NCBI GenBank assembly: GCA_019448385.1
Contig: JAGTXO010000028.1
Span: 62,001-126,000, forward strand
Length of the DNA: 64,000 bases
From: Diacronema lutheri
Taxonomy: Eukaryota > Haptophyta > Pavlovophyceae > Pavlovales > Pavlovaceae
Direction: 5' to 3'
Part shown: in pieces, positions 40,535 through 43,588 of the stretch
Position numbering within the stretch: position 1 is the stretch's first letter
Layout of the letters: each line of letters starts with the position of its first letter
Position numbers and translations under genes: made by a program
Notes under the pieces: generated by a model
Databases searched by the model: none
What the model was told of the DNA's origin: nothing
What the model saw: the letters and a program-made list of their open reading frames with translations, nothing else

Positions 40535-43500
40535 ATGCCGCGCGTGCCAGTCACCGACGACCCCTATGCGCTCGCGGCGGCAGTCCGCGGCGAGGACACG
40601 AGCCGGTGGACCGCACTCGAGGCGCGCTGGCTGCTCGTCCGCGCGCCCGTCGAGCAGTCGTCGATTGTGCCCTTTTGGGCGGCATGGGCGTTCCTCTGTG
40701 CGGTGTGCACGGCGGCGTCAGTGCTCGTGATTGGCGTGATCTACGCAACGCCACGGCTGCGCGCGCAGCCCTACAACCACCTCGTCGTTGGGCTGGCCAT
40801 ACCCGACCTCGTCTTCTCCGGACTGTGCGGCATCACGTGCACGCTGCACGTGGCGCATGGCCGGTGGTACGACGGCGAGACGATCGGCGATGGCCGCGGC
40901 TGGATGTGCGACTTCCAGAGCTTCTACTGCACGTTCGGCATTGCGGGTTCGCTCTGGGTGAACGTGGTCGTCACGCACGAGCTGAGCCGGCTGACACGGT
41001 CGATGCGCTCGGTCGCGGTGCCCAAGCCGATCACACTGCAGCACGTCTACTCGCGTCTGGGCGCGGTGCTCGCGCTCGCCCTCGTCATCGCGTGGGTGCC
41101 AAATTACGCGTACCTCGTCTGGCCATCCATCCCGGCGCGCGCGTTTCAGACGCGCGATCTCGCATGCCTGCCTACGCCGTACGATGTGCCGTCCCTGCTC
41201 TTCTACCTGCTCTTCACGCTCTCGGTGATGCTCTTCATCCCGCTCGGCATCATCGCCACGCTCTCCGTGCGCATCGTGCGCGACTTTCGCGAGCTGAGCG
41301 CGCCGGCCGAGCGCGCGACGGCCAAGCGCGGTCGGCGGTGGCTCCGCTCGACCGGTCGCGCGCCCGCCGCGGTGGCGCCGACGCAGCCCATCGCCGCGCG
41401 CGCCGCGCTCTCGCTCGCCGGCCGCTTCTCGGCGCGCGTGCCGAGCGACGGCGAGACGAACGACAGGGCCGTGGCGCTCGTGAGCCAGCGGTCGGAGCGC
41501 GTGCTCGTGCTCTTCTTCTCGCGGCTGCTCGTCGTCCTCTTCGGCATGTGGACGCCCTTCTTCGTCCTCTGGGCCGTGCAAGTGCCCTACCACATTACCG
41601 GCGGCTGGATGTACTTCATCTGCGGCGCATTCTCGCACCTGCAGGGCCTCGCGAGCGCGCTTGCGTACGCGCGCAAGGACGACGTGTGGCTCGAGCTCAC
41701 GGCGCTGCGTGGGCGATGCTGCGGCGACGCGCGCAGCTTGGCCGACGTGGAGGAAGGCGAGCGCCAACGCGCGATCGGCCGGCCGAGCGCCGACGGCGCC
41801 CAGCCGTCGACCATGCCGGCGCTCGCAGGCGTTGGCTCGTCAGCGGTGCCGGCCGCCGCGACCTCCGGCAGCGAGCTCGCGTCGCTTGACGAGGTGTTGG
41901 CGATCTCGGCGCTCTCGGACGAGGCCAAGACGCACGTGCTCTCGCTCGAGCGCACGCCGATGCTCGTCGTCGCGTGGCATGCGTGGCTCGGCGTGGGCGC
42001 TATCCCGCCGTCGTCTCAGGGGTGTGCGCGCCAACTCTCGCCGGACGACGTTGTCGTGTTCGTGAGCCACCGTTGGTGGGGCCTTGGCGCGCGCGAGCCC
42101 GACGACGCGCACGAGACCAAGTACGCGCTCATCTGTCAGGGCGTGCAATCGATCATCGCGGCGCACGGGCTGCCTGCCGAGCGCGTCGCCATCTGGATCG
42201 ACTACGCGTGCATCGACCAGCACGATGCGGCGCGGATGGCGCTCGGCATCGAGTCGCTCGTCACGTACGCCGCGCGCTCGTCCTACGTGCTCATCCCCGT
42301 CGAGCCGACGGCGGAGGCGGCGTCTGCGCTCAACGTCGCGACGCACCCAATCGAGCTCGTCAATTATGGAGAGCGCGCGTGGTGCCGCCTCGAAATCTAC
42401 GTCTTCGTCTGCCTCTGCGAGGTGATGGGCCTCGCTGCCGTGGTCTACGCGTATTCCGACCTTGGCGTGCGCACAGGCCGGAAGCCGCGCGCGCGCTTGG
42501 CGCAGGTGGCGGCGGCGGTCGTGCGCGAGAGCTTTGCGGGCAGTCAGCCCAGCGCGCGTGTGTCGAGCGCCGGTGATTCGGGGCCGCATAACGCCACGCC
42601 GGCGCTTGCGCCACCGCGCGGTGGCGCCGCGCGAAGCGTCGTGCTGCGCGCCGCCGGCGCGCTCGCGCGCGCGGCGGGCCGCCTGGCGCCTCGCCGGCCT
42701 CGCGCGCCGCGCGCGGTGCTGCGCTCGCTGCTCACGACTTCGGTTGGCCAGCACGCGCATGGGCCCCAGCTCTCGGCCAACGTGCTCCGCTTCACGCGCA
42801 TCGAGCTGCCGTCGTCGGGCGAACTGAGCGTCGAGGCGGACCGCGCGGTCATCGAGGCGATCGAGCGCAGCGTGCGCGACCGGTACGTGCAGCACTCCAT
42901 CCTCGCCGAGAAGATGCGCCGTGCGCATCGCCGCGCGCTGCGCAAGCAGTGCGTGCTCGACGCCAAGCAGCTCGAGGGGCGCCACCTGCGCCTCCTTGCG
43001 AGCGCGTTCCACTCCGACCCGCTCGGCTTGGCCGACGTCGTGACGCTCTCGCTTCGCGCCAACCTCATCGTCGGCGCCGAGCTCGGCGAGCTCGCGCAGA
43101 TCGTGTGCGCGCCCGCGGCGCGCGGCCTGCGCGAGCTTCGACTCGGGCACAACGAGGGCCTGGGCGTGGCGGGCATGCAGCACCTCGCCGCGGCGCTCAG
43201 CTCGGCCAGTTGCCAGCTGCGCGTGCTCCGGCTTGAGGGCTGCGCGCTTCGCCCCGACGCAGGCCACGCGCTTGCCGAGGGCGTGCAGCGCTCGGCGCAT
43301 CTGCGCGAGCTCGACCTAGCCGACAATCGGCTCGACAACGCCGCCGTGATGGCGCTGATCGAGGCGCGCGACTCGAAGCGCTCGCGCGGCTGGGCGGCGC
43401 TCATCATGAACGTCGAGGGCAACCCGATCTCGTCCGCCGTTGCGCAGCTCGTCATGCTCGGCAACGCCGCGCGTGTCGACGTGGGCGATATCCGCCGCGT

Positions 43501-43588
43501 GCGCGAGGACTCGTTGCGCAGCAGCACGGACGACACGGCGAGGTGGACGCCAGCGTCCAGCAGGCTTCCCGCATCGTCGTCGTCGTGA
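40535..43588 (+). CDS. 7TM receptor (cAMP-receptor-like) fused to HET/TIR-like domain and LRRs
   Basis: This single-exon frame of 1,017 aa has three modules. Residues ~45-385 hold seven hydrophobic helices. TM2 has NHLVVGLAIPDLVFSG; a Cys before TM3 (C125) could pair with C211 in the second loop; TM7 reads HLQGLASALAYARK. This resembles class E/cAMP-receptor-like GPCRs. Residues ~475-645 hold VVVFVSHRWWGLG, VAIWIDYACIDQHD and GERAWCRLEIYVF. The WIDxxCIDQxD signature is that of HET (heterokaryon-incompatibility) domains, and the SHRW strand recalls the TIR fold. Residues ~820-985 carry RNI-type leucine-rich repeats (LRELRLGHN, LRVLRLEGC, LRELDLADN). The predicted topology puts the HET/TIR and LRR parts in the cytoplasm. 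Ligand, enzyme activity and partners are unknown. The start ATG at 40535 is the first in frame and leaves a 45-residue N-tail. Confidence 0.85.
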   Translation: MPRVPVTDDPYALAAAVRGEDTSRWTALEARWLLVRAPVEQSSIVPFWAAWAFLCAVCTAASVLVIGVIYATPRLRAQPYNHLVVGLAIPDLVFSGLCGITCTLHVAHGRWYDGETIGDGRGWMCDFQSFYCTFGIAGSLWVNVVVTHELSRLTRSMRSVAVPKPITLQHVYSRLGAVLALALVIAWVPNYAYLVWPSIPARAFQTRDLACLPTPYDVPSLLFYLLFTLSVMLFIPLGIIATLSVRIVRDFRELSAPAERATAKRGRRWLRSTGRAPAAVAPTQPIAARAALSLAGRFSARVPSDGETNDRAVALVSQRSERVLVLFFSRLLVVLFGMWTPFFVLWAVQVPYHITGGWMYFICGAFSHLQGLASALAYARKDDVWLELTALRGRCCGDARSLADVEEGERQRAIGRPSADGAQPSTMPALAGVGSSAVPAAATSGSELASLDEVLAISALSDEAKTHVLSLERTPMLVVAWHAWLGVGAIPPSSQGCARQLSPDDVVVFVSHRWWGLGAREPDDAHETKYALICQGVQSIIAAHGLPAERVAIWIDYACIDQHDAARMALGIESLVTYAARSSYVLIPVEPTAEAASALNVATHPIELVNYGERAWCRLEIYVFVCLCEVMGLAAVVYAYSDLGVRTGRKPRARLAQVAAAVVRESFAGSQPSARVSSAGDSGPHNATPALAPPRGGAARSVVLRAAGALARAAGRLAPRRPRAPRAVLRSLLTTSVGQHAHGPQLSANVLRFTRIELPSSGELSVEADRAVIEAIERSVRDRYVQHSILAEKMRRAHRRALRKQCVLDAKQLEGRHLRLLASAFHSDPLGLADVVTLSLRANLIVGAELGELAQIVCAPAARGLRELRLGHNEGLGVAGMQHLAAALSSASCQLRVLRLEGCALRPDAGHALAEGVQRSAHLRELDLADNRLDNAAVMALIEARDSKRSRGWAALIMNVEGNPISSAVAQLVMLGNAARVDVGDIRRVREDSLRSSTDDTARWTPASSRLPASSSS

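Follow-up and report, generated by a model that had tools for sequence, protein, structure and literature searches.

A candidate one-chain receptor joining a rhodopsin-type seven-helix head, a TIR/HET-like module and leucine-rich repeats in the haptophyte Diacronema lutheri

The gene and its three parts

We analysed a window of 64,000 nucleotides of the haptophyte Diacronema lutheri (assembly GCA_019448385.1, contig JAGTXO010000028.1, positions 62,001 to 126,000 of the forward strand), in which an intronless gene encodes a protein joining a seven-transmembrane (7TM) head, a TIR/HET-like module and leucine-rich repeats (LRRs) on one chain. A preliminary description, made from the letters alone, had proposed a receptor of this build. 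Its features, in window coordinates, are listed below (pLDDT, predicted local distance difference test; dN/dS, ratio of nonsynonymous to synonymous substitution rates; RNI, ribonuclease inhibitor; C11 and C79a, paralogous copies described in the next section).

40535..43588, + strand: intronless gene for the 1,017-residue 7TM, TIR/HET-like and LRR receptor (frame, Pfam, relatives, model, GC by codon position)
40655..41719, + strand: class-A (rhodopsin-type) 7TM region and helix 8 as predicted, residues 41-395
41720..41884, + strand: variable disordered linker, residues 396-450 (low pLDDT; dN/dS 1.04 for C11 versus C79a)
41885..42484, + strand: TIR/HET-like effector module, residues 451-650 (pLDDT mostly >90, TIR matches in VIA, sub-threshold HET)
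42059..42079, + strand: motif FVSHRWW, residues 509-515, end of strand A and next loop
42194..42220, + strand: motif WIDYACIDQ, residues 554-562, end of strand B
42377..42394, + strand: motif AWCRLE, residues 615-620, start of helix C
42485..42784, + strand: low-complexity insert within the module, residues 651-750 (mostly low pLDDT)
42785..42934, + strand: conserved stretch with the last long module helix (769-798), residues 751-800 (LPSSGE...EADR...IE; dN/dS 0.18)
42935..43489, + strand: RNI-type LRRs, residues 801-985 (LRR_6, ribonuclease inhibitor and NLRP1 LRR fold)

The frame runs from ATG to TGA without an internal stop. At a GC content of 66–82%, the window holds 134 open reading frames (ORFs) of at least 200 residues, the longest of 7,175, and such frames arise by chance, so ORF length alone is no proof of a gene and the case rests on homology. 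Full-length relatives with identical domain order support a real gene, and the GC by codon position (0.71/0.53/0.90) fits coding. Together with the Pfam matches, these results confirm the single unbroken frame of the preliminary description and its observation as a whole; of its interpretation, the one-chain architecture of 7TM, TIR/HET-like and RNI-type LRR parts stood, and the assignment of the head to class E, the cAMP type, fell.

Pfam score and predicted fold place the head among the rhodopsin-like class-A 7TM proteins. Pfam 7tm_1 matches residues 63–350 at 38.4 bits against a cut-off of 30.5, and the class-A seven-helix fold is recovered with very high structural scores, FSHR and TSHR being the top two VIA rows. 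The full-length structure model bears out the seven hydrophobic helices noted earlier and adds helix 8, a plain hydropathy scan at 1.5 picking up only five of the seven. A class-E receptor was rejected, with the class-A score and fold on one side and, on the other, no class-E Pfam family at E ≤ 10, a listing limited by HMMER filters that discard most matches above E ~0.1. In an alignment of six paralogs (C77 left out as a near-copy of C76), all six share the D of LAIPD or VVPD, the C of MCDF or WCDL, the C of LxC[LM]P, and [CM]WxP, which we take to be the Asp in transmembrane helix (TM) 2, the Cys pair of TM3 and extracellular loop 2, and the WxP in TM6. The DRY motif of TM3 and the NPxxY motif of TM7 are absent in the six, which carry HEL, AEF, AEL or REV and S[SA]xxY instead. 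An opsin was rejected for want of the retinal lysine (K296) of TM7: at that place, counted by hand on an assumed bovine spacing to Tyr306, all six paralogs have His, as do, by reading, P0003, P0005, P0014, P0015, P0020 and P0024.

Three motifs of the module are strongly conserved. The module served as query in two protein searches, which together returned 40 different proteins, the window protein included, and over these 40 the residues F509, S511, R513 and W514 are each kept in 39, H512 in 35 and W515 in 31; W554, D556 and Q562, and likewise W616, C617 and E620, are invariant. The motifs VVVFVSHRWW, WIDYACIDQHD and AWCRLE named in the preliminary description are thus present, with core residues invariant or in 39/40. 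W616 and E620 form a WxxxE on the C helix (model helix 615–631), a motif found in TIR NADases (PMC11374754). S140, D167, W204 and E208 are reported there as necessary for the NADase activity of AbTir; judged by strand and helix order in the model, S511, D556, W616 and E620 would occupy their fold positions.

The predicted structure of the module resembles TIR, at modest Z, and TIR-titled entries make up 23 of 50 rows of a VIA listing that does not exclude families it fails to list. Profile comparison (hhalign) with seven partial TIR_2 pieces aligned E620 with their Glu in a run scoring 13.2. In a second run with other options, the real score of 20.5 exceeded all 60 column shuffles (best 16.2); a shuffle count of 9 of 60 used the 13.2 of the first run as its threshold, the like-for-like threshold being 20.5. 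HET (PF06985) in the window protein stays below the Pfam cut-off of 22.5, with 12.3 bits for the whole protein and 15.7 for the piece. None of 21 whole proteins scanned singly reaches that cut-off (best 22.4, P0023); among six module pieces only that of P0020, with short inserts removed, exceeds it (23.6 bits; whole P0020 17.8). HET is nevertheless the only Pfam family matched by more than one module piece (11 of 12 at E ≤ 10). No Pfam TIR match is listed for the window protein or the relatives scanned, a whole-genome HET search of D. lutheri gave no matches, and searching PDB sequences with the profile of the module brought no useful match. The structure prediction did not refute the earlier claim of a HET/TIR-like effector and lends it modest support; the Pfam scores stay short of membership in either family.

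The LRR region, claimed earlier to be RNI-type, is borne out as such by Pfam LRR_6 (24.0 bits against 23.4), by a match to ribonuclease inhibitor (1dfj, 2.3e-18) and by the fold of the NLRP1 LRR 4im6 (Foldseek, E 3.6e-6, TMt 0.79). Neither NACHT nor NB-ARC is listed by Pfam for the window protein at E ≤ 10.

A receptor family in D. lutheri and its relatives

The protein P0002 is D. lutheri KFE25_004796, located on contig C11 at 99–100% identity, and a search with it found relatives complete in all their parts on C3 (the window), C9, C11, C76, C77 and, as a tandem pair, C79. A whole-genome 7tm_1 search gave seven matches above cut-off, all seven at loci of this family. Every rhodopsin-type receptor found in the genome is thus a fusion of 7TM, TIR/HET-like and LRR parts, in a search that reads exon by exon and scores the best candidates only, and could miss a stand-alone class-A receptor. 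Around the receptor gene, 5.5 kb are 99.98% identical on C76 and C77 (L011/L012), which may reflect a single gene assembled twice or a very recent copy.

The C11 splice that yields exactly P0002 lies at residue 586.7 (codon 587), between the module motifs SHRW (542) and AWC (646); the intron lies inside the module, so one exon codes for the 7TM region together with the module's first half. At the corresponding position, residue 587/588, the homology between the two C79 copies is interrupted. The C3 copy lacks the intron, and the C76 and C9 copies are each one open frame. The C9 frame carries an intron-like insert of about 40 in-frame residues (L013), likely a read-through intron, which separates SHR from WW. 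The existence of paralogs, the position of the C11 intron and the transcript-derived relatives described below led us to reject a chance fusion of two ORFs or a gene-model error.

Selection was compared by dN/dS with NG86, which ignores the strong GC bias, and only C11 and the C79 copies are close enough for reliance on the ratios. Between C11 and both C79 copies, they are 0.29 for the 7TM region, 0.18–0.19 for the module and 0.35–0.37 for the LRR; against C79a, the values are 0.29, 0.19 and 0.37, with 0.18 for the end helix, 1.04 for the linker and 0.64 for the insert. The C79 pair is too alike (7TM 1.02, few changes). In the same order of 7TM, module and LRR, C76 versus C11 gives 0.57, 0.40 and 0.82, the window versus C11 0.84, 0.69 and 0.91, and the window versus C9 0.92, 0.70 and 0.82. 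The module is the domain of highest identity in C11 versus C79, C76 versus C11 and window versus C11, except for the end helix in C76 versus C11. Elsewhere in the genome, canonical TIR_2 domains give six matches, and four weaker module-like matches (27–34% identity) lie away from 7tm_1: L014 (C50), L015 (C28), L016 (C74) and L018 (C9:2685000-2688500). The words GPCR, leucine-rich and receptor do not occur in the main text of the genome paper of D. lutheri NIVA-4/92 (PMC8379373).

Among the 40 module proteins, 7tm_1 is above cut-off in seven, the window protein, P0002, P0005, P0014, P0015, P0020 and P0024, those not scanned singly having no PF00001 in precomputed annotation. In the six relatives, module and LRR region follow the 7TM region in the same order by alignment, and the N-terminally truncated P0003 keeps that order. 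P0020 and P0024, whose names are those of Trinity transcripts, each combine 7tm_1 with HET below threshold and a weak LRR_6 match in one ORF; in these transcripts, which come from relatives and none from D. lutheri, the 7TM and LRR parts are not split.

Other module proteins differ in what precedes the module, and many lack transmembrane segments. The TIR/HET-LRR unit stands behind YHYH and six hydropathy peaks in P0010, behind YHYH and three in P0012 (Aureococcus), and behind an N-terminal ectodomain and seven peaks, with no Pfam GPCR (G-protein-coupled receptor) match, in P0011. Distant relatives are the fungal P0038 (Sordaria brevicollis) and the green-algal P0039; P0034, P0036, P0037 and P0038 have TPR or ankyrin matches, some weak, with the module near the C-terminus (RAWCSVE). 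In a tree of 39 module rows (fragment P0030 omitted), class-A rows and other-headed rows are separated by one change (support 56/72), and 26 rows without a head label, some perhaps truncated, are intermixed, so the tree does not settle how often a 7TM head joined the module. A search with the P0014 head found P0014, P0005 and P0041 only and is insensitive, as it missed the window protein, P0002, P0015, P0020 and P0024. P0041 (726 residues) joins a head like that of P0014 (34% identity) to a different C-terminal part without Pfam match, so 7TM heads may be swapped between effectors.

Prokaryotic genome contigs scanned with the module gave one relative among 35 pattern matches, and the scan seeds were strict, so rarity in prokaryotes is not established. 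That relative, an ORF with SHRW...WIDYSCVDQ...RAWCRVE in a metagenome-assembled genome of Verrucomicrobiales (PAAG01000016.1, L001), lies 0.7 kb downstream of a helix-turn-helix (HTH)-TIR_2 gene on the same strand (2334-3122 and 3824-4639), with a 143-residue ORF between them, and the locus is possibly a defence locus. A viral origin was rejected, a scan of viral contigs with the module alignment giving six pattern matches and no relatives.

On either side of the receptor gene lies one copy of a direct repeat, each about 350 bases long (39950-40306 and 44084-44430, 92% alike, 4.13 kb apart), whose only full copies in a whole-genome DNA search are these two. It is perhaps a remnant of an earlier tandem duplication, its spacing being near the 4.07 kb between the two tandem copies on C79. 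Close downstream of the repeat's right-hand copy, a 300-base stretch occurs three times at 44627-45304 (spacing 189 bases, 96–97% alike). Neighbouring genes encode a protein kinase (36274-38292), a Na/Ca exchanger (45875-49588) and an ion channel (Ion_trans, 59585-62446); the open frame of 7,175 residues at 1564-23091, about 80% GC, is possibly low-complexity rather than a gene. PADLOC and NCBIfam searches listed no families.

How the receptor may signal

To one reading we give an even chance: a class-A 7TM receptor switches a TIR-like NAD+-cleaving module, with the LRR restraining or scaffolding it and without a heterotrimeric G protein. The 7TM region would span the membrane and end in the cytosol, where the TIR/HET-superfamily domain and then the RNI-type LRRs follow. 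A ligand other than retinal would bind the 7TM region, and a conformational change or clustering would lift an autoinhibition kept by the LRR; the TIR-like modules could then associate and cleave NAD+ through the WxxxE glutamate E620. The output would be an ADP-ribose-type signal or the loss of NAD+, and the purpose may be biotic or stress sensing.

A genome search for Gα (PF00503) gave seven weak matches, all at places scoring 101–241 bits as Arf; the C43 match, taken with its neighbours, reaches 49.8 against the Gα cut-off of 48.8 but 154.9 as Arf. All matches score as Arf genes, so no Gα was detected; its absence is not proved, since the controls that gave signal are prokaryotic genomes and there was no eukaryotic positive control. 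Signalling without a G protein, claimed earlier, becomes likelier with no detectable Gα, but seven RGS matches over cut-off in the genome weigh against it. The same RGS domains, with the very high structural scores of the class-A fold, favour a conventional G-protein-coupled receptor whose tail is a scaffold tuning signalling or localisation. We consider this distinctly improbable, given the Arf identity of the Gα matches (with the control limit just stated), the absence of DRY and NPxxY in the six aligned paralogs, and a module that is mostly the highest-identity domain between paralogs.

The module may alternatively be a non-catalytic TIR/HET-type adaptor, clustered on activation to recruit further proteins of the TIR/HET type in the manner of Toll-like receptors. 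Adaptor-type signalling was proposed for HET domains by Dyrka et al. 2014 (PMC4986451), and the canonical TIR_2 domains of D. lutheri could be partners, but the NADase-type residues are kept beyond what a pure adaptor would seem to need, and we regard this as rather unlikely. The HET matches of 11 of 12 module pieces, with P0020 over the cut-off, and the triggering of cell death by HET in fungi (PMC10197012) also suggest a cell-death effector of HET type whose chemistry is not NAD+ cleavage. The chemistry of HET has itself yet to be established, however, and HET is held to be TIR-related (PMC10197012, PMC4986451), so this explanation, which we think very unlikely, overlaps that of the NAD+-cleaving receptor.

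Place among known receptors

The closest known systems are the GPCR-bigrams, of PIPK, INPP, AC, PDE, TKL and AP types (PMC6033456, PMC5784254), in which, as here, one chain unites a 7TM region with a domain of catalytic type, the catalysis being putative in our case. A possible bypass of G proteins is proposed there, but the types that we found named there have no TIR, HET or LRR part, and in D. lutheri no class-A 7TM was found outside the fusion. The receptor belongs to the GPCR-bigram kind, as a variant not previously described in the literature searched. The FSH and TSH (follicle- and thyroid-stimulating hormone) receptors likewise join a class-A 7TM and LRRs; their LRR is N-terminal and extracellular, whereas here it is C-terminal, behind the TIR/HET-like module. 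For choanoflagellates, one paper (PMC12716839) describes GPCR-kinases and gives LRR as an additional domain of rhodopsin-family GPCRs; TIR does not occur in its main text.

Toll-like receptors and plant TIR-NB-LRR proteins also bring a TIR-like effector and LRRs together, but here a 7TM region replaces a single or no transmembrane helix, the LRR is predicted to be cytosolic and after the TIR-like part, and, unlike plant TIR-NB-LRR/NLR proteins, there is no NACHT or NB-ARC match. Fungal HET proteins (HET-E, TOL) share the HET-type motif block; a published account relates HET to TIR and reports homologs of HET from haptophytes and stramenopiles (PMC4986451), but the section consulted mentions no 7TM, and nearly all modules scanned here fall below the Pfam HET cut-off. 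Bacterial and animal TIR NADases (AbTir, SARM1, ThsB, SPARTA) share the Ser, Asp and WxxxE residues, and their fold order may match that predicted for the module, but they have no membrane receptor part; NAD+ cleavage is demonstrated for AbTir (PMC11374754), our module being a candidate NADase.

GPCRs and TIR domains are among the best-studied signalling modules, and we found no description of a GPCR with a TIR/HET domain on one chain in the open-licence papers searched, nor, as claimed earlier, of a receptor joining all three parts. Should the NAD+-cleaving reading be right, a TIR enzyme would be under the direct control of a GPCR ligand in a testable receptor free of G proteins. Such a receptor may serve immunity or cell death in algae of ecological importance, and it would offer a natural design for ligand-switched NAD+ enzymes. 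A broader proposal, possible but on the doubtful side, is that D. lutheri lacks heterotrimeric Gα, has class-A 7TMs only as one-protein receptor-enzymes in which a GPCR ligand switches a TIR-type NAD+ enzyme, and exemplifies a general receptor class. If true, the effector-LRR unit behind other polytopic heads, algal and metagenomic, would mark a class of receptors that couple sensing of the GPCR type to immune or death signalling of the TIR type.
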